A DNA stretch of 23,319 nucleotides from a virus, in IMG/VR virus record IMGVR_UViG_3300048586_000243, positions 1 through 23,319 of that record; one strand, written 5' to 3'. Shown here in pieces: positions 212-20,586 of this stretch. The position numbers were made by a program, and so were the translations under genes. Numbering within the stretch: position 1 is the first letter of the stretch; each line of letters begins with the position of its first letter. Under the pieces are notes generated by a model. That model was not told where the DNA came from and did no database searches. It saw nothing but the letters and a program-made list of their open reading frames with translations.

Positions 212-490
212 TTAGCGCTTGATCAGGCGCAGGTTGTTGAAGGTGACGACGGCATAGGCGACCGACAGGATGACCAGCCAAATCAGGCTGTCGATGCGCC
301 AAAGAAATATTGCCAACGCAACGACTGCGCCCTTGGTGACGATCAGCGCCGGGATCACGCCGATCCTCTTCATGATGCGGGCCATAAGGGGATTGGCCTC
401 GACCGCGCGCCTGGTGCGCAGGGCAAAGGCGGTGGTGGCGAAGTCCAGCAATTGCAGCGCGATCACGGAAATCAGCAGCAGATCGATCAT
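212..490 (-). CDS. DUF5658-like small membrane protein at the prophage end
   Basis: This 92-residue protein is mostly hydrophobic, with likely membrane segments near residues 3-22, 44-62 and 66-84 and basic residues at both ends. The order 'LQLLDFATT', then 'EANPLMAR', then a hydrophobic block and an 'NNLR' C-terminus resembles the DUF5658 family of small membrane proteins, whose function is unknown to me. It is the last gene before the attachment site, 54 bp past the LamG-like gene, and is not translationally coupled to it. That position is typical of accessory 'moron' genes expressed from a prophage, for example in superinfection exclusion, but nothing in the sequence proves this. The start at 490 has only a distant AGGA upstream. 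Stop is TAA. Confidence 0.72.
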   Translation of the reverse strand: MIDLLLISVIALQLLDFATTAFALRTRRAVEANPLMARIMKRIGVIPALIVTKGAVVALAIFLWRIDSLIWLVILSVAYAVVTFNNLRLIKR

Positions 491-544
491 TCGTCATTCA
501 TCCTGGTCAGGGCGAGTATTGCTACGATGGGGGTGGCGTCACTC

Positions 545-1333
545 TCAGAGCGTAATCCCGCACTTACCGGCCGCCCAGGCTTCGGCGTTCGCCAATTCCC
601 CAGCAGTCAAGCTCCGGTAGATAACGATCATCGCGTAGAGCCGTCCTTTGAAAAACCTGGACGTGCCCCCTCTGGAGCCGAGAAACACCGTCCCGCCGTT
701 GTAATCTCCCGTTCCCTGATCGTTAGCGTTGGTTCCGAGCTGCACGCCATTTCGACGGATCAGACAGGTGTCAGCGCTGATATCACCAATCCCTGTCACA
801 ACGTAGTTGACGCCGACAGAGGACGATCCTGCACGGGCGAGAGCGTTGGCTCCGGTGCCCTTGCTGTTGAACCCTATATTGTCGCTGGCTGCGTCGGCTG
901 TTGCGGCAAGAGCAAAAGTGCCGTTGTTCCCTGTCGGGTTTGACGTGATCCCGAGAACATCCTCCACGACAGCGTTCTGTTCACGCCGCATGGCTGCCAC
1001 GACGGTTACGGCATCTCCAGCCGACGCCGCACTGCCAAGCATGTAGTCATCAACGCCGTCGAATTGCAGATACGGCAGTGACCCGTCCAACTGGTACGTA
1101 GGGGTCAGGCCACCGCCCCCACGGTTAAAGGTGACCGACCGTACGAACGTGGTAATACTAGAAACGCCCGCCCCCGGCGTCGTCGTGGACAGTGTATCTC
1201 GTGTCGGATCGAGAACAAAACCAGCTTCTCCCGCGGAGAACAGCGACGCAGGATCGAACGCCGGTGGCGGCGAACCGCCGCCTGCGCCCCGAAATGCCGC
1301 CGCCCCAAGTGTGATGCCAAGCCCCAGCATCAT
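545..1333 (-). CDS. LamG-like fibre protein paired with a GTA-type spike base
   Basis: This 262-residue protein starts with a short Gly/Pro-rich stretch and 'ASLFSAGEAGF', a pattern I associate with Rhodobacterales phage and GTA receptor-binding proteins. From about residue 90 it resembles a concanavalin/LamG beta-sandwich: 'LQFDGVDDYM', repeated beta-strand blocks, and a C-terminus reading 'FKGRLYAMIVIYRSLTAGEL', the usual closing strand of such domains. The start (ATG ATG at 1333/1330) overlaps the stop of the spike-base gene by ATGA. In RcGTA the spike base (Rcc01079) and fibre (Rcc01080) are a pair that decorates the head and helps adsorption to the capsule; I infer the same role here. 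One hand-counted 120-bp stretch (661-780) is 60% GC, below the core genes. Family placement is moderate; the sugar-binding role is inference. Confidence 0.68.
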   Translation of the reverse strand: MMLGLGITLGAAAFRGAGGGSPPPAFDPASLFSAGEAGFVLDPTRDTLSTTTPGAGVSSITTFVRSVTFNRGGGGLTPTYQLDGSLPYLQFDGVDDYMLGSAASAGDAVTVVAAMRREQNAVVEDVLGITSNPTGNNGTFALAATADAASDNIGFNSKGTGANALARAGSSSVGVNYVVTGIGDISADTCLIRRNGVQLGTNANDQGTGDYNGGTVFLGSRGGTSRFFKGRLYAMIVIYRSLTAGELANAEAWAAGKCGITL

Positions 1334-1590
1334 ATCCAGCCCGTCAGACCGGTCGCCGTGGTGCCGGTGGCGCGCACGCGGGCGGCCCACAGGACATAGG
1401 TGCCGGCGGGCAGGGCGCCGGTGGTATGGATTGTGCCCAGTGGCCATTCATAGGACAGCACGCCGGCCGTGCCGATCGTGATCGCGCGCACCGGGCTGGA
1501 CAGCGCCGTCGCATCGGACGGCGTGATCGCAATGGCCCCCTGCGCCGGGGCGCCCAGGGATTGCGGCAGGTTATTGAACTTGGGCGGCAT
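1330..1590 (-). CDS. Spike base protein, RCAP_Rcc01079 (GhsA-like) family
   Basis: This 86-residue protein has the hallmarks of the GTA spike-base family: 'ITPSDATALSSPVRAITIGTAG' in the first half (cut here into recognisable pieces: ITPSDAT, ALSSPVRAI, TIGTAG), then 'LPAGTYVLWAARVRATGTTA' and a short hydrophobic end (LTGWI). Members are about 80-110 residues and anchor a head spike. In R. capsulatus GTA this protein and its partner promote attachment to recipient cells. I chose ATG at 1590, with GGAG seven bases upstream, over an in-frame ATG at 1623. The 5' end overlaps the o-spanin gene by 20 bp and the 3' end overlaps the fibre gene by 4 bp, so the three are coupled. Whether it sits on the head or the tail of this podovirus cannot be seen from the sequence. 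Confidence 0.82.
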   Translation of the reverse strand: MPPKFNNLPQSLGAPAQGAIAITPSDATALSSPVRAITIGTAGVLSYEWPLGTIHTTGALPAGTYVLWAARVRATGTTATGLTGWI

Positions 1591-2604: not shown

Positions 2605-2736
2605 TCAGATCAGCCACTGGATCAGCACTCCGATTGCAAGGATGATCAGGCCGCCCACCAGGGCGACCAGCATGCGGTATTTGAAATCGCACCAGGGCGA
2701 TCGCGACGGCCTGCGAAGGGATCGGATGTCAAACAT
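2605..2736 (-). CDS. 43-residue single-helix membrane protein, holin candidate
   Basis: This is a short reading frame of 43 codons plus TGA. A basic N-terminal part (MFDIRSLRRPSRSPW) is followed by one strongly hydrophobic segment (MLVALVGGLIILAIGVLIQW) that ends almost at the C-terminus. ATG at 2736 has GGAG six bases upstream and overlaps the end of the 122-residue gene by 8 bp; the stop is two bases before the endolysin ATG. The tight packing between two lysis genes and the good ribosome site argue that it is real. A single-helix holin, pinholin or antiholin role is inferred from position and topology only. An alternative in-frame ATG at 2748 lacks a ribosome site. Confidence 0.72.
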   Translation of the reverse strand: MFDIRSLRRPSRSPWCDFKYRMLVALVGGLIILAIGVLIQWLI

Positions 2737-3097
2737 CTCTGTCTCCATCGGCGGGCAACCGACCGGCGCGGATGCGCGTCAGGACAACTTCCATGATGGC
2801 AGGGCCAAAGATGCCGGTCATATAGGCCATGGCCCCGCCTGTTCCGAATGCCGGGATGGCGGTCACTGGCAGATCCAGCCAGTGCGCCAGCAGTGCGCCC
2901 AAGGTTGTGCCGCCCCCGGCAGCGGCAAGGGCGCCCAAGATGATCTGGCGCAGGGCAGCACGGACCTTGCCGTTGCCGTCATCGATCAGCAGGGCAGAGG
3001 TCAGGCCACCTGCGCCGCCCCACATGGCGGCGACGATGATGGCGTTTGCGATGATCGATCGGCCGACTTCGGCCAGGATGCTGGGTTCGTCGTTCAT
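2729..3097 (-). CDS. Three-helix membrane protein, probable holin
   Basis: This 122-residue protein has three predicted hydrophobic segments near residues 14-36, 49-70 and 80-104, many small residues (Gly/Ala), and a charged C-terminal tail (RIRAGRLPADGDRDV). Size and topology fit class I holins, which form the inner-membrane lesion that lets the endolysin out. The ATG at 3097 abuts the tail-spike stop (TAAATG). The next genes are a one-helix protein, the endolysin and the spanins, so the lysis context is strong. I do not recognise a named holin family, and it could instead be an antiholin or another phage membrane protein. Confidence 0.7.
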   Translation of the reverse strand: MNDEPSILAEVGRSIIANAIIVAAMWGGAGGLTSALLIDDGNGKVRAALRQIILGALAAAGGGTTLGALLAHWLDLPVTAIPAFGTGGAMAYMTGIFGPAIMEVVLTRIRAGRLPADGDRDV

Positions 3098-5509
3098 TTA
3101 TACGCTCTGCACGATCAGTGTGGCATGGGCTTGCCGCCCGGCAGGGTCGGTCACCAGTGTGTTGTCGCGGTACAGCCCACCGAGGACGCCGTAGGGCGAC
3201 ATGATCGCCCCGGTGCCGCCCGAGTTGTGGACTGCGATCACCTGTCCGTCGGCGCGTACCTGTATCTGCAGATTGTCCGTGCCCGCCTCTGTCGTGCAGT
3301 GAATGCTGATCAGGCCCGCCCATGCTCCCGATCCTGAAGTCTTGATGGACGCCACGGAAAAGACCCCGCCCGAGCCGTGCAGAACGCGCAGGATATCGGC
3401 CCCGGTTGAGGTGCGCAGGACGACGATGGACTGGCAGCGGCGGCTTGGCCCCGTGTCGCCGACGTCGTGAAAGACGTGCTGTGTGCCAATCACACAACCC
3501 CAGCCGACCGGGATCGCCCCGTTCAACAGCAGGTTGGCGGAGCCGACGAGACGCGGAACGATCTCCGGCCGCGCCCACCAGAAGTCAGGCAGAAAGATCT
3601 CCCGCGCGGTCGCGACGGAATAGGCCGACACTGACACGGGATCGAACTGGTCCACGATCAGCCACCCGCCAAACTCGAATGTCCCTGCGCCACCGCAGCG
3701 AAAGCGCAGGCGTGACAGGCCGAAAGGCAGTTCCGCGACATACAGGTGATTTTCCGCCGGGCGTTCCGTCGTTGGGCTAGAGGCGACCCCGAAATTGACT
3801 TCCTTGCCGATCTCCGTCGCTGTGCCAGCGGTGCCGACATAGGCATAGGCCGGATTGCCACCCGCCACGACAGATCGGTCGGGCGAGACATAGACCGCGC
3901 GGCGCGCCCGGTCGCTCCATACCCAGATTTCATTTGCCACGTTGACGTTTCCGGTCGCGACCAGGCGCGCGGAAAAGCCCGCATGGTTGTTCATCAGGTC
4001 GTTGTAGCTGACGGCCACTTCAGCCGAATATGCGGCATTGTGCGGTCCAAGGCGCGACCCATGGGCGACCTCGATCACGCGATGCCGGAAGATCTCGCGC
4101 ACGATGTACTGCGCCAACAGGATGTGGACAGTATCGTTGAAATGCGTGCCGTCCGTTTGCACATCCGCCAGCCGATACTGGTCCCTCCGATCCCGCTGCC
4201 ACGCGGCAAGCATGGCATTGGTGTCCACCAGATCCACCCGCTGTTCGGCGGCCACCTCGCGCACCGCGTTCAGCAGCGCTGCCTGGATCAGCGGATTTGG
4301 CCGGAGCGGCGCGGCCGAAATCAGCCAGGGCGTCACCATGACCGGCACCCGACCGGACAGTCGCACCTGCCACAACAGCTCTGCATAACGCTGCTTGAAC
4401 AGGTCAGGGTTCCAGACCGGTGCCGTGTCGGTCTTGATGTCGTTCAGCCCGAAACAGATGAACACGAACTGCGCACCCGGATAGGGCGTATCGACCGAGG
4501 GGCCGAAGTTGTCGCGCGCCCAATAGTCGATGATCTTCTTGCCGCCGGAACCCGCATTGAACGTCGTGACGGCCGCATTGCCCGTGATCACCCGCAGGAT
4601 GGAGCCAAGCCGATTGGGCCAGTTGTTATATGCCTCGGTCACGCCATCGGTGCCCAGCACCGAACTGTCGCCGTAGCACACGATCCGCACGTCCTCGCCG
4701 TTCTGGGCCTGAAGACCAATCCGGGCCAGGGCACCGCGGTCATCCTGCGGCCAGTCAACGACCGCCAGTTTCACGGGTGTCGTTGCCGAAGTCTGCACCG
4801 AATGGTTGGTGGCGCCACTTCCCAGCACCCTGAAAACGGCGTTCTCTTTCCGGGTCAGGATCAGATTGCCTGAATTGACCCGGCCGGGACCGGTTCCCGC
4901 GTAGGTCAGAGCAGTATCAGCGCGCAAGGCGGCGATGTCGTCAAACCACAGCCCATCGTACAATGCCGCCTGTGCTGCGGATGCCGCAGCAGCCTGGGCC
5001 GCTGCGGTTGCGATGGCACCGTTCGTTTGCGCGCCGGCTATATCAGCCGCATCGGGGCCCAGATCGATGCCTTGTCCATCGGATGCCCACATCAGCACCC
5101 GCCCGGGTTGCGGCGTTCCCGGTCGCAGCGGCACATCGGCGCGCACAGTGGTTTGCATTTCAGCGGTCAGCTCCTGCACGCGCATCACCGTGGCGTCCAG
5201 TTGCCGTTCCAGCCCGCGTTCGCGATACCCCAGAATGCCCTGCCATCCCTGTTCGATCGGGGTCTGCCGGCTGATGATCAGACTGCCGCCCTCATGCAGC
5301 GCGGCGGCTGCGGGCGTCAGGGTCAGTGTCCCGTCCGAAGCCGAAGTGATCGGGTCGACCACATAGTCAGCAGGGCCAAGAACGATGCGCTCCCCGTCAT
5401 TGACCACAACTGCAATGACCCCGCCTTCCATGTAGGGCCACGGGATATCGTAGGATGCGCCGATCACGATCGTCGCGGGGGATGCTGCCTCGAAAGCTTC
5501 AACAGTCAT
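3098..5509 (-). CDS. Tail fibre/spike with N-terminal T7-type anchor and SGNH/GDSL esterase domain
   Basis: This is an 803-residue receptor-binding protein. Residues 1-120 resemble the T7 gp17 N-terminal virion anchor: a beta-rich domain, then a helix with 'GLERQLDATVMRVQEL'. An Ala-rich helical linker follows (about 155-185). Residues 270-475 carry SGNH hydrolase blocks: block I CYGDSS (Ser282), the block II Gly in FNAGSGG, block III FGLND (Asn356) and block V DGTHF (Asp453, His456). Such domains deacetylate capsular or O-antigen sugars. The C-terminal 300 residues are beta-rich and unrecognised. ATG at 5509 fits the anchor better than 5524, though both have weak ribosome sites. T7 gp17 is 553 residues, so this is a larger, enzyme-armed version. 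Substrate is unknown. Confidence 0.85.
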   Translation of the reverse strand: MTVEAFEAASPATIVIGASYDIPWPYMEGGVIAVVVNDGERIVLGPADYVVDPITSASDGTLTLTPAAAALHEGGSLIISRQTPIEQGWQGILGYRERGLERQLDATVMRVQELTAEMQTTVRADVPLRPGTPQPGRVLMWASDGQGIDLGPDAADIAGAQTNGAIATAAAQAAAASAAQAALYDGLWFDDIAALRADTALTYAGTGPGRVNSGNLILTRKENAVFRVLGSGATNHSVQTSATTPVKLAVVDWPQDDRGALARIGLQAQNGEDVRIVCYGDSSVLGTDGVTEAYNNWPNRLGSILRVITGNAAVTTFNAGSGGKKIIDYWARDNFGPSVDTPYPGAQFVFICFGLNDIKTDTAPVWNPDLFKQRYAELLWQVRLSGRVPVMVTPWLISAAPLRPNPLIQAALLNAVREVAAEQRVDLVDTNAMLAAWQRDRRDQYRLADVQTDGTHFNDTVHILLAQYIVREIFRHRVIEVAHGSRLGPHNAAYSAEVAVSYNDLMNNHAGFSARLVATGNVNVANEIWVWSDRARRAVYVSPDRSVVAGGNPAYAYVGTAGTATEIGKEVNFGVASSPTTERPAENHLYVAELPFGLSRLRFRCGGAGTFEFGGWLIVDQFDPVSVSAYSVATAREIFLPDFWWARPEIVPRLVGSANLLLNGAIPVGWGCVIGTQHVFHDVGDTGPSRRCQSIVVLRTSTGADILRVLHGSGGVFSVASIKTSGSGAWAGLISIHCTTEAGTDNLQIQVRADGQVIAVHNSGGTGAIMSPYGVLGGLYRDNTLVTDPAGRQAHATLIVQSV

Positions 5510-5553
5510 TCTGTCCGTCCGCATGGAATACGATTGGCAGACAGAAGACGAAG

Positions 5554-5593: not shown

Positions 5594-8089
5594 TCACGGG
5601 GTATTTCCGAACGCATTACCTAAATCTGGTAGCCTGCCGGGCAAAGCCTCGCCCGGCGTCCACCAGGGGGAGTTTCCGAACTCCTTCTGCTGGCGCTTGA
5701 TCCGCCGCCGCATCAGCGTCTCGGCCTCGGGATCAAGGAACTGGCTCAGGTTCTCCATGACCAGCCGGGAGTAGGCTGTCCGCGCGTACCACGACGAAGA
5801 CAGGAACGGAGTGTATCGCTGCGCCAGCCCGGCAACATCCCGGCCCAGATGCGTATCCTCGCCCTTGACAAGTGCATTCACGTTCGTGGCGACCGGCGAA
5901 ATCAGATCGCCAAGGAAGCTGATCGATGGGCCTGCGACAGTGGATCCCAGGCCGCCGCCCATGCGGTTCTGTTCGGATGCGAAGAAATCGCCGAAGATCC
6001 CAAGGCCACCCCCCTGGAACAGGGCGGCCCACCAGAACTTGCCCTCGGTCATCGGGCGCGGATCGTTCCCCTTTGCCAGCTCCTTCAGCTGCACGGCGAC
6101 GGCGCCGAGGACGATCAGCATGCCGCTGACCTTGGCGGCATACTTCGCCTTGTTCCAGCGCCCCTCGATCTGCGCAAATCGACGGTATTGGTTCAGCATC
6201 AGCGACAGGGCAAAGCTCTTGTATGTGAAGCTCGATCGCAGCAGCTCGCCCGGGATCGTGCCGGGTGCGGCCGCGCCCTGCATCCGGGCGCGGCCTTCGA
6301 TGCTGGCCGTGGGCACTGCGAATTCCAGCTGCTCCTGGATCAATGCCTGCACGCGCATGGCCAGCCCCTCGGCCTCGACGCGCGGCATCGCGGTCTGATG
6401 CTCTAGCCAGTAGATCGGGCTGATGAAATCCGCGCCGTTCGGGGCGGTGAAGCGCGCAGCCGGATCGCGCAGCGCGTTCCAGTCATGCCCGGTGATCCCC
6501 CGTGCCTCGAAGGCGCGGCGCAGTTGGTCGGGCAGCATGTGATAGGGCAGGTCGGCATGATCTGCCATGTGGCCTGCGAACTCCATCTGGAATGCGATCT
6601 TGCGCATGTCGGTGATGAAACTGAGGCCCGTGGCACGCAGGGTAAACCCCGCCAGCCGCTCGGGGATGCCATTGCCAAAGATCTGCCCGAACCAGCGCGC
6701 GGATCCGCCGCCGGCATCGGCCAGCGCCTCGGCCACATATCCCATGCGCGCGGCGGTCTGGCGGGTTGCCTGACTGGCCATCAGCTCGACCGATCGGCCC
6801 ATGACGTTCCGGGCATTCATGCCCATGTGCTGCGCGGCCGCCGTGATCGTCGCCACATCGGTGACAGAGGATAGAACCGCGCTGCCCAGCTGGGCCGATG
6901 TCAGCACCGCCCGGGTGCCCGCGAAGAACCGCGCCATGGCGATATTCTCGGGCACATTCGCGGCGCCATCCATATGGGCCATCATGGTCAGGGCCAGCTT
7001 CGCCTGCTTGCCCACCGCCTCTTGCAGCGCCGCATCGCGGGCATCGGCCGCACGCTTGGTGGCAACCTGCGTCGCAAACTCCAGCCCCATGCGTGGGTTC
7101 GGTCCCAGCACGCGCATCATCGCCACGTCGCGTGCCAACCCGTTCAGCCCGTTCATCATGGCCGAAAAGGGATCGGATGCGCCGAAGTCGCGGTTATATT
7201 CCAGCCAGGCGCTGCCATCGCGGAAATGCAGGACGCGGTGTTCCGCGCGCTGGTTGTAAAGGGCCTTGCCGCCCATCGTCATGCCAGGGTCCCGGGTGTC
7301 CCATCCACGCGTGACGATACCGTCATAGACATCGCGCAGGAACCGATCGACATCCGCCCGCGCCGGGATCTGCCCCGGGGCGCTGGCAAAGGGCTTGCCT
7401 GTGGAAAGGTCAGGGATGCGGTCCCAGGCCAGCAGCCCGTGCACGCGCTCTGCCCAGGCGTCAAAGCCTGCCTTGCGCAGCTGGCCGCTGTCATGGGTAT
7501 GGGGCACGCCGTAGTCGGCCAGGTCGCCGATGTTGCCACCATGCGCGTTGAACAATCGGCGCATGCGCTGCTGCACCGTGCGCACCGCGCCCGCCAACCC
7601 CTTGGCGACGGTATCGCCGGTGGCCTCTCCATGCAGCTCGCGGATCAGCTTTTCCAGAAGTGCTGCATCGCGGCTTGATCCCACGACATTCAGCCCGACC
7701 TTCTGCAGCACCTCGTTCAGCCCTGCAGCGATGCTGGTCTGATAGGCCTCCATGATCGATCGGACGCTTTCGCCCTTCCAGCCAGATCCTTCGGAATACT
7801 CCAGAAGGTTGCGCAGGGCGACAGCCGGGTCCGGCGCGCGGCTGATCTGCTGCTGGATGCGGCGCATCGTCTGCAGTTGATTGATGACCTTGTGCCGACG
7901 CTGCACCGTCGCGGCCTTCGATGCGGCCTTGATGTCGGCCGCCGCAGCCGCCTTGGCCTGCGCATCGCCCATGGTTGTACGGTAGCGCTCCACCAGCTGT
8001 TCGTATTGGTTCAGCACAGCCACGCCGCGCTGCCGGTCCAGCTCGCCAAAGTCCATCGCGCGCGTGATGCAGTCCGCCATATTGGTCAT
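5594..8089 (-). CDS. Internal virion/ejection core protein, C-terminal partner of the gp16-like protein
   Basis: This 831-residue protein is largely helical, without a clear enzyme motif. It has an Ala/Gln/Lys-rich N-terminal helical region (to about 110), a middle region with 'GMTMGGKALYNQR' and 'FRDGSAWLEYNRDFG', and a hydrophobic helix near 645-665 (MLIVLGAVAVQLKEL) before a conserved-looking C-terminal tail (SWYARTAYSRLV, then a basic helix RRRIKRQQKEFG). These features and its place after the gp14-, gp15- and gp16-like genes fit a podoviral core protein ejected to line the channel across the envelope. T7 gp16 is 1318 residues; here the equivalent mass seems divided between this gene and the one before. 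ATG at 8089 gives an ATGA overlap and has GGAGG close upstream; an ATG at 8119 is rejected. Confidence 0.78.
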   Translation of the reverse strand: MTNMADCITRAMDFGELDRQRGVAVLNQYEQLVERYRTTMGDAQAKAAAAADIKAASKAATVQRRHKVINQLQTMRRIQQQISRAPDPAVALRNLLEYSEGSGWKGESVRSIMEAYQTSIAAGLNEVLQKVGLNVVGSSRDAALLEKLIRELHGEATGDTVAKGLAGAVRTVQQRMRRLFNAHGGNIGDLADYGVPHTHDSGQLRKAGFDAWAERVHGLLAWDRIPDLSTGKPFASAPGQIPARADVDRFLRDVYDGIVTRGWDTRDPGMTMGGKALYNQRAEHRVLHFRDGSAWLEYNRDFGASDPFSAMMNGLNGLARDVAMMRVLGPNPRMGLEFATQVATKRAADARDAALQEAVGKQAKLALTMMAHMDGAANVPENIAMARFFAGTRAVLTSAQLGSAVLSSVTDVATITAAAQHMGMNARNVMGRSVELMASQATRQTAARMGYVAEALADAGGGSARWFGQIFGNGIPERLAGFTLRATGLSFITDMRKIAFQMEFAGHMADHADLPYHMLPDQLRRAFEARGITGHDWNALRDPAARFTAPNGADFISPIYWLEHQTAMPRVEAEGLAMRVQALIQEQLEFAVPTASIEGRARMQGAAAPGTIPGELLRSSFTYKSFALSLMLNQYRRFAQIEGRWNKAKYAAKVSGMLIVLGAVAVQLKELAKGNDPRPMTEGKFWWAALFQGGGLGIFGDFFASEQNRMGGGLGSTVAGPSISFLGDLISPVATNVNALVKGEDTHLGRDVAGLAQRYTPFLSSSWYARTAYSRLVMENLSQFLDPEAETLMRRRIKRQQKEFGNSPWWTPGEALPGRLPDLGNAFGNTP

Positions 8090-11000
8090 TGAACGCCTCC
8101 TGTCGGGATGATGCCGCACGCCTGCACGACAGCATCGGCCGCCGCGTCGGCGTCCAGATCGTCCAGCATCTCGCGGGCGGTATAGGTGGTGCCGTCGACG
8201 TTGATCTCCAGATCCGCGAATTCCTCGCGCAGTTTCTGCAGCTCGACCGCGACGGGATCGGGGGCGGGCGCTTGATCCGGGTGCGGATCGGCGCCATCTT
8301 TGGCGTGACCGGTCGGGGATGGAGCCCGTTCCTCGCCAAGCCCAGTGTCCCGGAACGCTTCCCGCTGGGGCCGGTCGCCGCCGTCTTGAATGGCGGCGCT
8401 GTCTGCATTATCTTTTTGTTGCAGGGGTGCGGAAGGGGAAGAGCCGTCCGGCAATTCTGTGGTCCTCCCCATACTACGACCACTGTTCCCCTGCGCTTCG
8501 ACAGCCTCCAGCTCCGCCCGCATCGCCGCATCCGCCGCATCGGCCTCGGGGCTGGCCGCGCCTTGGTCAAAGCCCTGATCAGGCAGGGCCGCGGGCTCGC
8601 GGGCCGCAGGCGTGGCATAGCCGCGCGCCGCGCCCATGTCCTGTGGCAGATCTCCGAAGGCAGCGCGGTCGATCGTGATCAGCACATCGCGCGGGCCGGG
8701 CGCGTCGAACATGCCACCCGTTGCACCGGCCTTGCGGGCCTCATCCGCGTAGCGCGTCAGGAAATTGGCAACTTCCTCGGCCGGGGCTGCGCGGCCGTTG
8801 CGCCAGAACTTCCTGACCAGCGCTGCGGTCAGCGGCGAAATTGCGCCCTCGATCAGATCGACCTCGTCCAGCAACTCGGCCACGGCCTTTGCGATCGGCA
8901 CCTTCGTGCTGGCGGCCAGCTCGCGCGCGGCGGCGATCAGGCGCATCGCATCCAGCACATGCCCGCCGATGTCCATATCCGGGGAAACGCGCCCAGCCTC
9001 GATGTCGGCACGCAGGGCAGCCCAGCCGGGTGCTGCGGTTTCCAGTGCTTCCAGCAGGCTCTTCAGCTCGGCCGCATTGCCCTCGGTATAGCGCGCCAGA
9101 ATATCGGGATCGGGCCAGGCGCGGGCAAACAAGGCCTCGCGCAGCTGCCGCTCGCCCAGGCTGTTCAACATGCCGCTGGCCTCGAACATCGCATTTCGCG
9201 CTGACCGGGGCAGGGCCGCAAGGGCAGACCGCACGAATTCGGCGTTACCCTCGGCACGGATCGGCTGCGCCGGATCCAGCCGCCCAAGGACTTCGGGCGT
9301 CATGGCGCGGCTGGACGTGCGCGCCACTTCGGTGGGTGTCATGACCGCAACGCCACTGTCCTGGGCGGCAACGGTAAACCGAACGCGATCTTCGCGGCTC
9401 AGCTCCGATTTGCGGCGGGCGACAAGAACCGGCCGCTGCACTCCCTCGGGCACGGCAAAGCCGGCCGCCTCGATCTGGGCCCGGTACTGCGCCGCGCGAT
9501 CGGGGTGCTTTTCATAGGCGCGCAGGATGGCGCCATAGCGGCCGTTGCCGCTCTCGATCATGCCGTCCGGCCCGACAACGGGCGGTCCCCGGTCTGCCGT
9601 GGGCGATGGCATCAGCTGCGCGGGATCAAGTCGCGCGGCTGTGTCCGCGATCCAGGCATCCGATGTGATGCGGCTGCGATCGCGCGGCTGGAAGTCACCG
9701 CTGGCCCGGAACAGGCTGTCTGCGTCGACAATCTCGTAATCGACATCGATGCGGAATTCGTCGCCTGCTGCGACCTGGCCTGATCCGGTATAGCCCCGTG
9801 ATGTGGGTCCGAGGTCGTCCGATCCTGCGACATAGCCGCCACGGTTTGGGTCCATCTTGGACCGCGCCCAAAGGTGCAAATCGTGGGCCGTGAATTGATC
9901 CAGACGCTTTCCATTGAAGCGAACGCCTTTGTTGTCCGCGATTTGCTTCGGGCTCATCAGTTGTGTGACTGGCGTTTCCGGCGCAGCTTTCAAAACCCGT
10001 ATCGCGCCGGTGGGTCCGAGAAAGTGTGCCAGGTAGCGTTCGCCGGGGCCGACGGTTTCGATGCCGGCCGCCTTCATCGCGGCGGTATTTTCGCGCATGT
10101 AGGCCCGGGTAAGCTCGCGGCTGATGGCAGGATCGCGGCGAAGTTCTAGCACCTCTGCAGGCGTGCGCCCATCCAGCAGGTCAGGCCTGTGGGTGCGAAC
10201 AACCTCCATCCATGTGCCGGCCAGAAATTGACCATGTCCGGTTGCGCTGCTGTTCGGGTTCACCGCATCCGAACGACCGCTGCTTTCTGCTCCGATCACG
10301 AGGTTCACTTCCTCGTCCTCGGTCAGCGGTGCAGTACGGCGAGCGCCTGTGGACGGCGCGGCCCTATATGCGGCGTCAGGGACAAAGTCCGTTATGCCAG
10401 CGCGACCCGCTTCGATCGCCTTGCCAAAATAGGGGTCCAGTGATCGGGCCTTGGTGTCCGGCCCCCAAGACGTGACGGATCCTCCGCCAACATGGACGCC
10501 CCACTCATAATGCCCAATTCCGGGAAATACCTTTGCCGCCTCGAAGAAGAAGCGGGCATACAGTTCCTTGTCTTCACCGGGGCGCACAGGCACGCCGTTG
10601 CGCGTCAGGACCAAGTCACCAGTATGGGAATGCCCAGTATGATCGACATCGTGTCGGGTTGATCCGGTGCGCTTCCCACCCGGCGTTCCAGCAGCGTCTT
10701 GTCCACCCGAAACGATGACCACCCCGATATCATCACCCAAGGGAGCGACGGCACCGCGCAGGCGACCCATGAAATCTTCACTGACCGGTTTGTCGCGGAT
10801 CTTGCCTTCGGTCGAGACCACGACTTTCACATCATCGGGGGCACGGTTCGATCGGTTACGGCCAAGGATTGCCCCCATGGTCCCGGGCTCGGGCTCCGGT
10901 GCGGGATCTGACGGTCGCGCCTTTGGGCCGACCTTTTGCTGCACCGTTTCGTCGCCGCGCAACCTTGCCTCGGCCTCATCGATCTGGATTTCTGCCTCCA

Positions 11001-11844
11001 GCTCGTCACCCTCGCGCGCGGCCGCGCGGATGCCATCGCGATGACCACGAAACAGGCTGACCGCCTTGCCGATGCCCAGCAGGCCCGCCGTCAGGCCGCC
11101 GCCAAGCATGGCACCCAAACCGATGCGCGAAACTGCATCCGGCTTGTCGATGCCCAGTTCTTCCGACACTTCTGTTTCGCGGGGCAGGATCAGGGCTTCG
11201 CCCGCGGCGCCGGCCAGTGCTTCGCGCGCGATCATCTTCCAGGCAGCGCCCGAACCGCCGCCAAGGGGCAGGGTCAACAGGCTGACCTGATCGGTCATCG
11301 CCCGGGCAGATGTGCCCAGGAACTCGGCCACCGCGCCGCCGTCCTGATCAAGGATCCGCTCGGCCGCTTCCAGCTCGGCTTTCCGCTCGTCGGTGATCCG
11401 GCTTTCCAGCCCTTCCTTGGTCAGGGGGAAGCCCGCAAACAGCTTTGCCGTTTCCGGGGTCATCTTCGCGATCGCGGCGGCTTCCTCCATCACGATCTCT
11501 TCGAACGTGGTCCAGCCGGTCGTGTTGTCGGCAAACTTGGTCCAGACGCGCGACTTCACATCCTGGGGCAGCAGATCGAACATCTGGTCTGCGACCTCGC
11601 GCCGCTTTCCGGCCGCATAGTCCCAGGCATCGGTTCGGATGGTCTCGGCCTGCCAGCCGGCGGCAAAGACATCGTCAAAGCCCGCATCCCTGTCGGGCGG
11701 CGCTGGCAGGCCGGTCTCGGCCTCTGGCAGGTCATCGGGCACCTCAAAGCGCGGGGCAGGTGCAGGTGGCGGCACGCTGGCATCGGCGCCGCTCAAGGCT
11801 AGCGTGCCGCCCAGGTCTTCGTCCTTCTGCGCGAAGTCGTTCAC
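8086..11844 (-). CDS. Multi-domain ejection protein: M15-like block, SLT transglycosylase, DdrB/ParB-like domain
   Basis: A 1252-residue gp16-like internal virion protein. Order: Pro/Ala-rich start; helical region with a glycine-rich hydrophobic stretch (241-265, possibly membrane-active); an M15 peptidase-like block (about 340-460) with 'VVIVSGGQ', a His-rich segment RHDVDHTGHSHTGD (398-410) and later HYEWGVHVG (445-453); a lytic transglycosylase block (about 505-665) with Glu520 in IGAESSGRSD, then GHGQF (536-540) and a YLAHFLG helix; a DdrB-like ParB-superfamily region (about 703-850) with ESGNGRYGAILR (764-775); a helical region; and an acidic, low-complexity linker (about 1075-1200) before a short C-terminal domain. 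It would open peptidoglycan during genome entry. The M15 call is tentative: His/Asp spacing is not standard. It has 4-bp overlaps with both neighbours. Confidence 0.85.
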   Translation of the reverse strand: MNDFAQKDEDLGGTLALSGADASVPPPAPAPRFEVPDDLPEAETGLPAPPDRDAGFDDVFAAGWQAETIRTDAWDYAAGKRREVADQMFDLLPQDVKSRVWTKFADNTTGWTTFEEIVMEEAAAIAKMTPETAKLFAGFPLTKEGLESRITDERKAELEAAERILDQDGGAVAEFLGTSARAMTDQVSLLTLPLGGGSGAAWKMIAREALAGAAGEALILPRETEVSEELGIDKPDAVSRIGLGAMLGGGLTAGLLGIGKAVSLFRGHRDGIRAAAREGDELEAEIQIDEAEARLRGDETVQQKVGPKARPSDPAPEPEPGTMGAILGRNRSNRAPDDVKVVVSTEGKIRDKPVSEDFMGRLRGAVAPLGDDIGVVIVSGGQDAAGTPGGKRTGSTRHDVDHTGHSHTGDLVLTRNGVPVRPGEDKELYARFFFEAAKVFPGIGHYEWGVHVGGGSVTSWGPDTKARSLDPYFGKAIEAGRAGITDFVPDAAYRAAPSTGARRTAPLTEDEEVNLVIGAESSGRSDAVNPNSSATGHGQFLAGTWMEVVRTHRPDLLDGRTPAEVLELRRDPAISRELTRAYMRENTAAMKAAGIETVGPGERYLAHFLGPTGAIRVLKAAPETPVTQLMSPKQIADNKGVRFNGKRLDQFTAHDLHLWARSKMDPNRGGYVAGSDDLGPTSRGYTGSGQVAAGDEFRIDVDYEIVDADSLFRASGDFQPRDRSRITSDAWIADTAARLDPAQLMPSPTADRGPPVVGPDGMIESGNGRYGAILRAYEKHPDRAAQYRAQIEAAGFAVPEGVQRPVLVARRKSELSREDRVRFTVAAQDSGVAVMTPTEVARTSSRAMTPEVLGRLDPAQPIRAEGNAEFVRSALAALPRSARNAMFEASGMLNSLGERQLREALFARAWPDPDILARYTEGNAAELKSLLEALETAAPGWAALRADIEAGRVSPDMDIGGHVLDAMRLIAAARELAASTKVPIAKAVAELLDEVDLIEGAISPLTAALVRKFWRNGRAAPAEEVANFLTRYADEARKAGATGGMFDAPGPRDVLITIDRAAFGDLPQDMGAARGYATPAAREPAALPDQGFDQGAASPEADAADAAMRAELEAVEAQGNSGRSMGRTTELPDGSSPSAPLQQKDNADSAAIQDGGDRPQREAFRDTGLGEERAPSPTGHAKDGADPHPDQAPAPDPVAVELQKLREEFADLEINVDGTTYTAREMLDDLDADAAADAVVQACGIIPTGGVQ

Positions 11845-14000: not shown

Positions 14001-14557
14001 GCGGTGGCACCCCCACGATCAAAGCCGGGCCACAGGTCGGGCGATCCCTTCAGAACGCTGTCGGCCGCGCTGAAGGTGCCCTTAAGGAAAGAACTCACAC
14101 CCTGCCAACGTGCAGCCTGCGCCTGGCTGTCCAGCTCGATCTGGCGGGCGCTGCCCTGGGCGCGGATCGCCTGACTGTCAAAGCTCATCTCCTGGGCGGC
14201 TGCCTGGCCAAGGGCAAGCGATGTCGGGCTGGACAGGTCAACCCCGCGCGCGGCCAGCTCGGCCCGCTGTTGGCTGATCTGCGCCATGTACTTCTTGCGG
14301 GTGCGCTGATCCTGCACGGCAGTCAGCTGCTTTTCGGTTTCGGCTTGCTGCTTGATCGCGGCTTCCTGCGCCTTTGCCGCCTGCATGCCCATGATCCCCT
14401 GCGCCACAGAACCGGCCACGGAAAGCGCAGTGCCGATGCCCGAGAACGCCCCGGCACCGGCGGCGGCTGCCCCGGCACCAGCTGCTGCCGCTCCGGCGCC
14501 TGCCGCTGCCGCGCCGCCACCCATGCCAAGTACACCCAGTATCGTTGGCCCACACAT
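13997..14557 (-). CDS. Internal virion protein, gp14-like
   Basis: This 186-residue protein (T7 gp14 is 196) begins MCGPTILGVLGMGGG, followed by three near-identical copies of a GAGAAAA heptad and a Gly/Ala hydrophobic segment to about residue 60. The rest is a Gln/Ala/Arg-rich helix (65-170). This pattern, a small glycine-zipper-like N-terminus plus a long amphipathic helix, is typical of gp14-type ejection proteins, which insert in the outer membrane. The ATG shares one base with the preceding TAA (TAATG). Its place between the gp12-like and gp15-like genes is as in T7. Confidence 0.82.
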   Translation of the reverse strand: MCGPTILGVLGMGGGAAAAGAGAAAAGAGAAAAGAGAFSGIGTALSVAGSVAQGIMGMQAAKAQEAAIKQQAETEKQLTAVQDQRTRKKYMAQISQQRAELAARGVDLSSPTSLALGQAAAQEMSFDSQAIRAQGSARQIELDSQAQAARWQGVSSFLKGTFSAADSVLKGSPDLWPGFDRGGATA

Positions 14558-16767
14558 TAGCGTCCTGCCTCCTCAACAACGGGGACGATGGAAGTGATCG
14601 TGACCGGCGCACCGCTGAAGGGGCGCACCACGACCTGCAATTCGCGCGCGGTACCGGACACGCCGCCGGTGTTGACGACGCCCGAGATCACCTCGGTCAG
14701 CGGGGCCGCGACCGGCATCTGGATCAAGGGCCGCTCGCGCAGCTCGGTCCGGCGCTGCGGCTCGACCTCGACCACAGCGGTGCGGGCCTGCGCCGTCCGG
14801 GCAAAGCTGACCGCGATATCCTTCAGCCGCTTCTGACGCCCGGTGGTATCGCCGTTCGGGCTCGCGGCCTGCACATCAAGCGTGATCAGCTCATGCGTCG
14901 CATCGAAAAGACCGACCCAGGCATGGGTGACCGCGCCGGGCAGCTGCACCGTGCCCCCCGGCGATGACACGACCAGATCCGGAAAGGCGCCCTCATTGCT
15001 CCAGACATGCACGGTCTTGCCTGCCAAGTGCGGAACCGAGATTTCCGACACGGGCGTTTCGACCGAGACGCGCAGCGCAGCAAACAGGTGGTTCGCTTCA
15101 TGCGCTTCGGCGTCCGGGTCCATGGCCGTGAAGGGCAGGGACATTTCCTCGACAAAACGCCGGGTCTGCCCATCGATCACGCGGCGCACGATCATCATCA
15201 CCACGTCCATCGATCCCGTCACATCGGGCACCACGGCCATGGCCTCGACCACGCCACCGGCCACTGGCACCACGGACCAGCCCAGGACCTCTTCGGCCGG
15301 GTCATAGATCATTGCGGCCAGATTGCCCGATGCCTGCCTGACCCAGGCGGTGGGCTCGGGTGAGGATTGCCAGACAAGATCCTGAAATCTGTCACTGCCG
15401 ATATGCTGGGCGGGGCGCGACAGGCTTGATCCCCGGGTGCGATCTTCCTGCAAAGTGAACTTCTGCAGCATCAGCCGCCGCTCGTCCCGCGTGATGAAGA
15501 TCGGATCGCCGTCCGGGCAGATCGGCCGCCCGCCGTTCGATCCTGCCGATCCGATGGTCTCAAACACGGCAGTCGTCGGGCCGATCGCCTGGGCGCGGCT
15601 TTCGCTGCGGGTCGCGAATTCCTCGCCCAGGGCGAAGATGTGCAGGCCCGCCGCGCCGCGCTTCAGGTTCAGGATCCGGTTGATCGAAGACGTGCCCGCG
15701 ATGGTGTAGGCAAAGGGATCATCCGCCTCGATCCCGTCCAGGAAATCGGCATAGGACCCGACCCGGGAAAACCAGATGGTGCGCGGTTCGCGGGTCGATG
15801 ACGCGGCCACAAGGCGCTGATCGAACAACTCGATCGCGGATGGATAGCCATGACGCGCCGACCACGCCCCTTCGGACCAGCGATAGGTCGATGATGCGAC
15901 GACAGACGAAGGCAGCCGCTTGACAACCTGCGCGACTGCCACCGTATCCGATGTGATGCTCGTGATGCGCAGCACGCCGACGCGGTCGGAGATAAAGCGC
16001 CAGACCTCGAATTCGCCAGTGCGGGAGTCCCCGCTGCTGTGGATAGGTGGATTTTGCCCGGTGTTTGTGCCCTCGATCAGCTCGTAGGTTTTGCCATCGT
16101 AGATGCACCTCTCGCCGACCGCCCAGTCCGTGTTCGACACCCAAAGCGCGACATCGGTTTCATCGGTGGGCGTCAGTCGGATCAGCGAACCGACATGGTC
16201 GGCTGTGAAGAACGACCAGGACGCGGTCAGGGTGATGCTGCCGGTCTCACCGCTGGCTTGCAGGGTGCGGCTGGTGACCGTGTTCTGCACGCGAAACGGG
16301 CCGCGGTTCAGCTCCTGATCCTCGATCGTCCAGCTGTCCAGGGCAAGACGCGACAGGCGCTTCATGGGATGCGCCCCGTCCACCAGATAGATCACATCCG
16401 CAGATTGCACCCATTGCAGGTTCGGCAGATCTTCTGCGCCATAGGGCGTGGCCAGCCGATAGGGCGATGTGCCGTCCATCACCAGCTCGCCATAGCGCCA
16501 GACCCGCATCCAGTTCGGCACGAATTCCAGGACCAGCGCGTCATTGGCCGCAAACTGGAAGGGGATCAGGATCCCGGCCGCATCGTTGCGGGTGCGCCCG
16601 CGATAGATCGTGCCCGGTGCGCGCGTGATACCGCCCTGCGGAAGGGGAAGAAAGCCCCGGCATTTGGCAAGCCCGGACTGGAACCGCAGGTAATCAGACC
16701 GGCGATGCAGCAGCGGGTCGATCTCGCCCGATGAAAATGACCGCTGGGCGGGGGACGTTCTGGTCAC
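14557..16767 (-). CDS. Tail tubular protein B, gp12-like nozzle protein
   Basis: This 736-residue beta-rich protein (T7 gp12 is 794) would form the tail nozzle below the gp11-like ring. The N-terminus is characteristic: 'QRSFSSGEIDPLLHRRSDYLRFQSG', 'CRGFLPLPQGG' and 'RAPGTIYRG' in short order, followed by 'FVPNWMRVWRYGELV' and 'DVIYLVDGAHPMKRLSR', all typical of the podoviral/gene-transfer 'tail tubular B' and stabilising-protein families. Later blocks (ELFDQRLVAASS, TIWFSRVGSYADF) are also common in this family. It overlaps the gp11-like stop by ATGA and the gp14-like start by one base. The call is secure by both sequence pattern and order. Confidence 0.9.
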   Translation of the reverse strand: MTRTSPAQRSFSSGEIDPLLHRRSDYLRFQSGLAKCRGFLPLPQGGITRAPGTIYRGRTRNDAAGILIPFQFAANDALVLEFVPNWMRVWRYGELVMDGTSPYRLATPYGAEDLPNLQWVQSADVIYLVDGAHPMKRLSRLALDSWTIEDQELNRGPFRVQNTVTSRTLQASGETGSITLTASWSFFTADHVGSLIRLTPTDETDVALWVSNTDWAVGERCIYDGKTYELIEGTNTGQNPPIHSSGDSRTGEFEVWRFISDRVGVLRITSITSDTVAVAQVVKRLPSSVVASSTYRWSEGAWSARHGYPSAIELFDQRLVAASSTREPRTIWFSRVGSYADFLDGIEADDPFAYTIAGTSSINRILNLKRGAAGLHIFALGEEFATRSESRAQAIGPTTAVFETIGSAGSNGGRPICPDGDPIFITRDERRLMLQKFTLQEDRTRGSSLSRPAQHIGSDRFQDLVWQSSPEPTAWVRQASGNLAAMIYDPAEEVLGWSVVPVAGGVVEAMAVVPDVTGSMDVVMMIVRRVIDGQTRRFVEEMSLPFTAMDPDAEAHEANHLFAALRVSVETPVSEISVPHLAGKTVHVWSNEGAFPDLVVSSPGGTVQLPGAVTHAWVGLFDATHELITLDVQAASPNGDTTGRQKRLKDIAVSFARTAQARTAVVEVEPQRRTELRERPLIQMPVAAPLTEVISGVVNTGGVSGTARELQVVVRPFSGAPVTITSIVPVVEEAGR

Positions 16768-17357
16768 AGCCGCGCCTCCGTCGCCCAGTCACCCTGTTCG
16801 GCAAGCCCGTCATACCGGCCTTCCGATGCCGATCGGGCGTCCTCGCGCGAGGCTTCCTTCAGCGTGTTGCGCAGCTCATCCTTCAGCTCCTGCATGCGGG
16901 CCTCGGTCACAGACCAGCGCGCGCCCAGCACCACGGCCAGGCGCAGGGAAACAGCGGCCTGGAAGGCAGCAGGGGTTTTCGTCTCGTCCGTGATCTCGCC
17001 GGTGTAGCGCACATAAAGCGGCGCCGTCACATTGGCGCGCAGCCCGTCGCGGTCGATCCGCCACTTGACCGAAGCGTCACCCACTTCGCGGATCTTCACC
17101 ACGTCGCCGGGAATGCCGAACAGATAGGGCAGGTCGGGATCGGGGAAGGGATCACTTTCCAGCGTTGAAAGGATGCGCCGTGTCGATGCGAAGGACCAGT
17201 CGGTCTTCTCCAGGCAGAATTGCATAGCCAGCGGGTACTGTTCGCGCGCGGCTTCCGCTTCCTCGCTTTCGTCTCCCAGGCTGCTGATGGGGCTGCGGCC
17301 GATCAGGCGCATGGTCTGCGCCACGATTGCGGAATTGGCGGGGTTGAACTCCGGCAT
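16764..17357 (-). CDS. Tail tubular protein A, gp11-like gatekeeper
   Basis: The 197-residue length equals that of T7 gp11 (196). The N-terminus 'NPANSAIVAQTMRLIGRSPISSL' is followed by 'AREQYPLAMQFCLEKTDWSFA', the pattern typical of podoviral head-to-tail adaptors of this family. The C-terminal half has 'YVRYTGEITD' and a helix near 'LRLAVVLGARWSVTEARM'. It would form a 12-fold ring under the portal. ATG at 17357 has CAGGAGAG nine bases upstream, one of the better ribosome sites in the window; it is the first gene after a strong terminator, so it needs either read-through or its own transcript. The stop overlaps the gp12-like start. Confidence 0.88.
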   Translation of the reverse strand: MPEFNPANSAIVAQTMRLIGRSPISSLGDESEEAEAAREQYPLAMQFCLEKTDWSFASTRRILSTLESDPFPDPDLPYLFGIPGDVVKIREVGDASVKWRIDRDGLRANVTAPLYVRYTGEITDETKTPAAFQAAVSLRLAVVLGARWSVTEARMQELKDELRNTLKEASREDARSASEGRYDGLAEQGDWATEARL

Positions 17358-17923: not shown

Positions 17924-18862
17924 TCATTCGGTGCAGGGGATGACCACCACGCCCGCATCCTCGCCGCGCACCGCGTCCAGGTTGGTGCGGACGCGGACGT
18001 AAGGAAGATCATCGGCATGGGTGTCGTTCCACATCTTGCCGTTGATCGGTTCCCATTCGCCGCCGATGATGTTGGCCTTCGACCAGATCGCGACCATGCG
18101 CTTGTTGGTCGCCGAACGGGGCACCCGGTTGGTCATGATCCAGTTGACGCCCATCAGCATGGTGGGCTTGCCGCTTTCCAGCTGCTTGACGTCAAAAGCG
18201 TTCAGGTTGGCATTGGTCGCGGCCGCGATGCGCAGCAGGTCCGACTTCTGGCGCGGCGTGATCAGGCCGAAAAGCGGGTCCAGATCGTTGTCGATCCCGA
18301 AGTCTGCCAGCTGAAGCAGCTCGACAGCCTCGATCAGCTTGTCCAGCGTCAGGCCGTTTGCGTCATCGGGCAGGTATTGACCGGCGGGCAGGGCGGTCCC
18401 GACAGAGTTGGGCGTCTTGCCTTCGCGTGCCAGGCCATAGATGCCGCCGCGCGTCACGGTGAAATCTGCGCCGACCTTCTCGATGCCCAGCAACTGGTCC
18501 ATCTGGCCGCGCGTGACGGCGCCGGTGTGCGCCTTCACGAATACCGAAGTCGGGTCCGTCGCGGTGCGGAACTTGTCTTCGGTTTCGATGTACTGGCCCG
18601 ACTTGATTTCGTTGGTCGGTTCATAGACCACCCAACGCCGCGAACCGGAAACCGGGTTTTCGGTATTGCTGCGGTTGCGGGCAGTGCCGCGCACATAGTC
18701 CACCTTGCCGACCAGGTCGCGGACGGATTGCGCTTCGCCATTGGCGGGCACGATGGTCACGGCCGGAAGCAGCGGGTTCTTCAGTTGCTGCGCGACCATT
18801 TCGACGCTTGCAGCATATTGCAGCTTGTGGTGCTGCTCGACGTTACCGGGATAGACGGGCAT
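17924..18862 (-). CDS. Major capsid protein
   Basis: The 312-residue protein fits the small HK97-type capsid proteins of podoviruses (T7 gp10A is 345). It starts 'YPGNVEQHHKLQYAASVEM', has an extended-loop-like region with 'RNRSNTENPVSGSRRWVVYEP', and ends with strand-rich 'YVRVRTNLDAVRGEDAGVVVI'. This resembles the phage capsid family often found beside Bbp19-like genes. The position (after portal and scaffold, before tail tube genes) agrees. The ATG at 18862 is preceded by AGGAGGGG, the strongest ribosome site here, as expected for the most abundant virion protein. It has its own promoter-like sequence and long leader (18863-19061) and a hairpin after the stop. Confidence 0.9.
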   Translation of the reverse strand: MPVYPGNVEQHHKLQYAASVEMVAQQLKNPLLPAVTIVPANGEAQSVRDLVGKVDYVRGTARNRSNTENPVSGSRRWVVYEPTNEIKSGQYIETEDKFRTATDPTSVFVKAHTGAVTRGQMDQLLGIEKVGADFTVTRGGIYGLAREGKTPNSVGTALPAGQYLPDDANGLTLDKLIEAVELLQLADFGIDNDLDPLFGLITPRQKSDLLRIAAATNANLNAFDVKQLESGKPTMLMGVNWIMTNRVPRSATNKRMVAIWSKANIIGGEWEPINGKMWNDTHADDLPYVRVRTNLDAVRGEDAGVVVIPCTE

Positions 18863-20306: not shown

Positions 20307-20586
20307 CCATCATCTGGTTGAGCTGGTAGGGGGAAAGCCCGGCAACCGACAAAAGCTGCAGGGCGAAATCGCGGCGGCCAGCCTCGTAGGCCAGTTGCTC
20401 GACACTTGGGGGGCCGTCACGGGGCGGCGACAGCGTCAGCACACCGCCCAGACGGATCAGATCTTCCGCAAGGGCAGGCTGGGCAGCGACGGCTTTGTGC
20501 CACCGCTGGATGCAGTCGCGCTCCACGCTGCGCGGTGTGCCCGGGCGGAACACGGTCGCAAAGATTGCCAGACGGTTCCAGATCAT
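20290..20586 (-). CDS. Bbp19-like phage protein
   Basis: This 98-residue protein has 'RLAIFATVFRPG' near the start and, in the last third, 'EQLAYEAGRRDFALQLLSVAGLSP', the pattern of the Bbp19-like family named after Bordetella phage BPP-1 ('..G.R.....LL..LG...' followed by a short acidic tail). The biochemical role is not known to me; the family is regularly found between portal and scaffold genes. The start overlaps the portal stop by 4 bp (ATGA), and the 3' end overlaps the scaffold start by about 17 bp. Confidence in the gene is high, and in the family good. Confidence 0.8.
   Translation of the reverse strand: MIWNRLAIFATVFRPGTPRSVERDCIQRWHKAVAAQPALAEDLIRLGGVLTLSPPRDGPPSVEQLAYEAGRRDFALQLLSVAGLSPYQLNQMMDDPDA

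Follow-up and report, generated by a model that had tools for sequence, protein, structure and literature searches.

The locus analysed here raises the question of whether a short-tailed phage of the T7 type, whose tail has its own spike, carries on its head a second adhesion organelle of the kind known from a gene transfer agent (GTA). It lies in IMG/VR virus record IMGVR_UViG_3300048586_000243, of which positions 1 to 23,319 make up the window, that is, the whole stretch of 23,319 nucleotides that was analysed. A sequence-only reading had recognised an overlapping gene pair coding for a spike base and a LamG-like fibre, and had proposed either a second adhesion organelle on the virion or a spike module moving between GTAs and unrelated phages. 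Cryo-EM of the R. capsulatus particle (RcGTA) revealed that each spike consists of a base pentamer seated on capsid pentamers and of one fibre, residues 2-10 of which (IALGLGLGL) fit as a "five-point star" into hydrophobic pockets of the base pentamer (PMC7296036). The spike genes of R. capsulatus are flanked by polysaccharide biosynthesis genes (PMC10218006), and spikes of this kind are known by sequence from RcapMu and RcapNL (PMC8601537). The spike genes are not mentioned in a paper on the origin of RcGTA (PMC11409702).

The first gene of the pair (1330-1590, minus strand) encodes an 86-amino acid protein, the proposed head spike base. Its assignment to the Rcc01079 family was borne out by a profile search, in which NF048002 ("spike base protein, RCAP_Rcc01079 family"; curated cut-off 28 bits) was matched over positions 2-85 of 85 with 75.9 bits and E=2.2e-21. 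The protein also matches phrog_12296 and, in a single-sequence search, PDB 6tb9 ("Head spike base Rcc01079", E=9e-6), and a profile of its family run against all PDB sequences returned only two significant matches, 6tb9 (1.3e-23) and 8cjz_h ("Spike Base Protein", 1.8e-10). An AF2 model built from 77 relatives (pLDDT 88.5) has the small single jelly-roll fold of 6tb9, and superposes on 6tb9_A1 from RcGTA with a TM of 0.79 and Z of 11.8 (84 residues aligned, rmsd 2.4-2.6) and on 8cjz_h from the mature capsid of podophage Carin-1 with a TM of 0.67 and Z of 8.6; the next row of the fold search drops to Z 4.7. The protein is thus a member of the Rcc01079 family by both sequence and fold. Its N-terminus is variable among relatives, and the contact of the base with the capsid may be capsid-specific. 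In RcGTA, as a detail that is not family-wide, this contact is made through a cation bound by Glu12 of the base. Glu12 aligns with Gly in the window base and with D, E, S, T or G among relatives, so that, as judged from this alignment, the contact in the window phage probably differs from that of RcGTA.

The second gene (545-1333, minus strand) encodes the putative fibre or adhesin, 262 amino acids long from the first ATG (1333) and 261 from the second (1330); relatives begin at the position equivalent to the second ATG. The two genes overlap as had been described, an ATGATG sitting on the TGA stop of the base gene, and the fibre gene is thereby coupled directly to the base gene; -1 nt is the commonest spacing in the survey presented below. 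At its N-terminus (1304-1333) the fibre reads M-MLGLGITLG, the same alternating hydrophobic/Gly "star" peptide as residues 2-10 of RcGTA Rcc01080; this docking plug had gone unremarked in the sequence-only reading. A flexible linker, GAGGGSPPP, is also present. The LamG-like character of the fibre was supported by a match of residues 106-247 (593-1018) to Pfam Laminin_G_3 (PF13385; 27.7 bits, E=3e-6), barely above the gathering score of 27.6, and by a model with a ConA-like fold, while no relative was found by sequence in the PDB. The model also matches many other ConA-like domains, including receptor-binding lectin domains of toxins, and these matches were set aside as reflecting merely a common fold. 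As modelled, the LamG/ConA fold would be compatible with binding of capsular polysaccharide.

The pair is embedded in a virion gene set of the T7 kind, defined by phrog_332, 394, 376, 418 and 684. All genes discussed lie on the minus strand: the portal (20583-22241; phrog_332, E=8e-109), the major capsid protein, on which the base presumably docks (17924-18862; phrog_3437, E=2e-49), tail tubular protein A (16764-17357; phrog_394, phrog_9239), tail tubular protein B or nozzle (14557-16767; phrog_376, E=5e-155), and internal virion proteins, one of them at 5594-8119 (phrog_684, E=2e-161). These are followed in order by an 808-amino acid tail fibre or spike with a GDSL esterase domain, a second receptor-binding protein (3098-5524; PF13472, E=4e-13; phrog_19294), a holin-like gene (2729-3097), an endolysin of the Phage_lysozyme family (2054-2692; PF00959, E=9e-26), an Rz-like i-spanin (1767-2057; phrog_312, E=7e-4), an Rz1-like o-spanin (1571-1831; phrog_456, E=1e-7; LysC, E=1e-4), the end of which overlaps the start of the base gene, and then the base, the fibre and a DUF5658 membrane protein (212-490). 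The position of the pair downstream of the spanins and its coexistence with a T7-type tail bearing a separate spike are therefore as first read. Since the full replication half is missing from the 23-kb record, the term "T7-like" rests here on virion genes only. The capsid and portal have their nearest named relatives, at about 25-30% identity, in HTVC010P-type Pelagibacter podophages.

Some features of the surrounding sequence deserve mention in their own right. The small DUF5658 protein, which has a 77% counterpart in the closest relative, lies between the spike module and a putative attachment site. At the window edge (85-126) we observed a tRNA-Asn-like 3' half (ctccggcggtagggatcgaacctacgaccaattgattaacag, reverse sense), where ARAGORN finds no complete tRNA; as this half looks like an integration site, the record may be the end of a prophage. 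A tRNA-Pro called by ARAGORN at 6404-6498, antisense to the internal virion protein gene (8119-5594), is probably false.

The closest relative found, locus L005 (loci of the survey carry an L number), is 91-92.5% identical at the DNA level over most shared virion genes (blastn). The similarity breaks off 94 nt into the fibre gene, at about codon 31, leaving a conserved block at 1239-1333, and resumes beyond the fibre; the bases are 94% identical and the fibres 50%, with plug and linker conserved. The GDSL tail-fibre gene has a second break, about 395 nt from its start (codon ~132); its product keeps its N-terminus in L005 and has its C-terminus replaced. Both receptor-binding proteins consequently vary behind fixed anchors, a conserved anchor with a variable adhesin occurring twice in the same genome, and the fibre varies in the manner of a receptor-binding protein.

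Comparison with L005 also revealed a third gene of the module. In L005 it lies behind the fibre (11076-11426) and encodes a homologue of Carin-1 gp38 with 43% identity; further homologues occur in L088, L132/L281, L148/L268, L155, L157, L289 and L014/L097. Such genes, coding for about 120-130 amino acids, follow the fibre in podophages and other loci (also L314, 31819-32217), and their products have no Pfam or PHROG match. Only the ends of this gene are left in the window (488-548, minus strand), an internally deleted remnant that starts LRVT and whose 3' end reads VAILALTRMNDE before the stop.

The capsid spikes of Carin-1, a T7-like podophage of Cobetia marina, are reportedly likened to those of RcGTA in the abstract of the study describing them. 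A spike of this kind is thus not new for T7-like podophages, Carin-1 (2023) preceding the present case. Its gp40 (GenBank PQ119497) is annotated "head spike base protein; structurally identified and validated" and is the chain seen in the mature-capsid structure 8cjz_h. The adjacent gp39, a hypothetical protein of 384 amino acids, overlaps gp40 by 1 nt, starts MLGLGLGIAR and matches the profile of the window fibre family in its middle part (99.5% probability; LamG-like domain), so that Carin-1, the one T7-like podophage whose spike base has been solved, shares the two-gene arrangement; by these same features gp39 is the probable fibre. The two phages further resemble each other in having a separate enzymatic tail spike, represented in the window by the GDSL tail fibre, and the tail tubular protein B (by tblastn) and portal of the window match Carin-1. 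They differ in that the bases are only 21-23% identical in structural alignment, the major capsid proteins show no similarity detectable by BLASTP, and the Carin-1 module lies among head genes with an intact gp38, whereas that of the window lies behind the spanins with a remnant third gene. The host of Carin-1 is gammaproteobacterial.

RcGTA itself offers a comparison with Rcc01079/Rcc01080 (GhsA/GhsB), which share with the window pair the base family and fold (36% identity), the N-terminal alternating hydrophobic/Gly plug, the neighbouring arrangement of the genes and, likely, capsule binding. The RcGTA fibre is longer (325 versus 262 amino acids), and in GTA-type loci the pair sits beside capsule or exopolysaccharide genes, apart from the virion cluster, whereas the window pair follows the spanins. 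Coupled second genes are likewise found in RcapMu (RcapMu57-58), RcWaterboi and the Paracoccus phage Pben1, whose bases belong to the same clade as that of the window; these phages are long-tailed (siphophage or Mu-like) and the window phage short-tailed. The Pben1 partner starts MLIGLGIGIGF, while the plug of the RcapMu/RcWaterboi partner is divergent (MTGLPGCGMGGGG). In T4-like Flavobacterium phages (immuto; L315, 3971-5894) the major capsid gene is immediately followed by that of the base, and next comes a gene for a repeat-rich protein starting MYIGLGISLQ, annotated as tail fiber or hypothetical; judging from this arrangement, the pair probably encodes head spikes in Bacteroidota myophages.

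The plug was followed across the family in a survey of viral, phage and genome loci, which together hold 205 distinct bases; a tightly coupled next ORF accompanies 111 of these. The motif, defined as H-G-H-x-H or H-x-H-G-H within the first 16 residues (H being I, L, V, M, F, W or Y), is present in 59 of the 111 coupled partners. Its frequency is 3.7% among 5,649 background ORFs, and when each peptide is shuffled it turns up in 16.6±3.5 of 111. As the motif had been tuned after the first loci were seen, it was re-tested without alteration on a held-out set of loci, drawn from 296 genomes of a single family, of which 101 have a base scoring above the cut-off; here the motif occurs in 16 of 33 partners, compared with 3.5±1.6 after shuffling (maximum 9 in 1000 shuffles). 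Most plug partners (41/59) begin at a spacing of -1 nt. Their full lengths range from 92 to 1,021 amino acids, 52 of their C-termini sort into about 25 clusters without BLAST links between them, and Pfam searches on a sample recovered LamG, SASA esterase, GDSL esterase and Ig-like domains. The strict motif is absent from nearly half of the coupled partners, and many members of the base family have no coupled partner. Eight loci (L064, L065, L067, L071, L077, L044, L052 and L039) form a group of their own, in which the base is followed 9 nt on by a protein of ~311-317 amino acids starting MAGFW and devoid of a plug; in these the base may act by itself or together with a different protein.

One plug with many adhesins thus appears, from these sequence comparisons, to be a plug-and-socket rule across many unrelated phages. 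We consider it fairly probable that bases of the Rcc01079 family act as a general socket, into which the degenerate hydrophobic/Gly plug of a neighbouring gene product would mount any adhesin on the head vertices of unrelated virions (T7-like, siphophage or Mu-like, T4-like and GTA), that Pseudomonadota and Bacteroidota phages would thereby swap head adhesins independently of their tails, and that part of the modules would include a third, gp38-like protein.

For the window, a second adhesion organelle on the virion is the best reading, and very probably the pair encodes capsid-vertex spikes: the base belongs to a family of which both solved members sit on capsids, and the fibre combines the RcGTA docking motif with a receptor-binding variation pattern. 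Five copies of the jelly-roll base would occupy each major-capsid pentamer at the non-portal vertices, giving up to 11 spikes. Each base pentamer would take up a single fibre, whose N-terminal L-G-L-G-I-T-L peptide would be threaded in with its alternating hydrophobic side chains filling one pocket per base subunit, and the flexible linker would present the LamG-type glycan-binding domain. This domain may hold the particle reversibly in capsule or exopolysaccharide, and the short tail with its GDSL-bearing fibre would engage the cell surface afterwards.

The pair could instead be a tail component, an additional tail fibre in which the base links the LamG adhesin to the nozzle or tail tip, as the PHROGs label "tail fibre" for the base family (derived from the RcapMu annotation) and the location of the pair after tail-fibre or lysis genes in the window, RcapMu and RcWaterboi would have it. 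We regard this as improbable, because the solved members of the family are capsid spikes, a pentamer is unsuited to tail parts of 6- or 12-fold symmetry, and the bases of Carin-1 and immuto are encoded beside capsid genes. Proximity to the lysis genes would also suit a base that merely caps pentamers for stability, with the fibre, unrelated to it or soluble, a lectin or depolymerase that lysis sets free, and the many base-family members lacking a coupled, plug-bearing partner are in keeping with such a bare decoration. The window fibre, however, has the plug, the start/stop overlap and an anchor conserved with L005 in front of a divergent C-terminus, which makes this explanation very improbable.

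The head-spike reading must also be weighed against a recently captured, non-functional GTA fragment, for which speak the homology to GTA genes and the C-terminal domain of the fibre, which shares a BLAST-linked cluster (built with Rcc01080 itself left out) with fibres of GTA-type loci L116, L147, L155 and L157. A maximum likelihood tree of 54 bases over 86 columns, in which many forks are open, places the window base within a supported 23-row clade (98/92) where podophages are mixed with RcapMu, RcWaterboi, Pben1 and Paracoccaceae prophages, whereas the GTA-type bases (L130, L139, L131, L147 and L116) form a separate supported set (98/92) that includes the long-branched podophage L073. Genes for polysaccharide biosynthesis are among those flanking L147 and L139; L116, L130 and L131 are taken as GTA loci from the tree and by reference to these two. 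The pair is moreover kept in L005, other podophage loci also have it in this position, and a captured fragment is accordingly a most improbable explanation.

The mobility proposed for the module held in one part. Podovirus-marker loci with a base include L005, L006/L007, L040/L043/L045, L073, L189, L232, L024, L059/L158, L041, L081, L082, L145 and Carin-1, and the module is also carried by sipho/Mu-like, T4-like myovirus and GTA-type loci. The AU test rejects a single clade for all podophage bases (p about 5e-74, a value whose size is untrustworthy given long branches and only 86 columns) and does not reject a clade of the window, L005 and L006 (p=0.22). The mixing of podophages with RcapMu, RcWaterboi and Pben1 in the base tree indicates that the module has passed between phages with different tails but related hosts; a GTA origin of the window copy by a direct GTA-to-phage step is not supported.

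Our analysis brings a group of podophages, whose hosts appear to be Paracoccaceae, into the range of probable GTA-type head spikes, and adds a podophage member with a remnant third gene, a plug rule with a held-out test, and Carin-1 gp39 as a probable fibre. The rule is simple to apply: it looks for an Rcc01079-type base whose next gene, at -1 nt, encodes L-G-L-G-like repeats at the start of its product, and points to candidate head adhesins now annotated as hypothetical proteins or tail fibres. Such phages would possess two independently varying receptor-binding proteins, which bears on the prediction of host range and on the origin of GTA particles.
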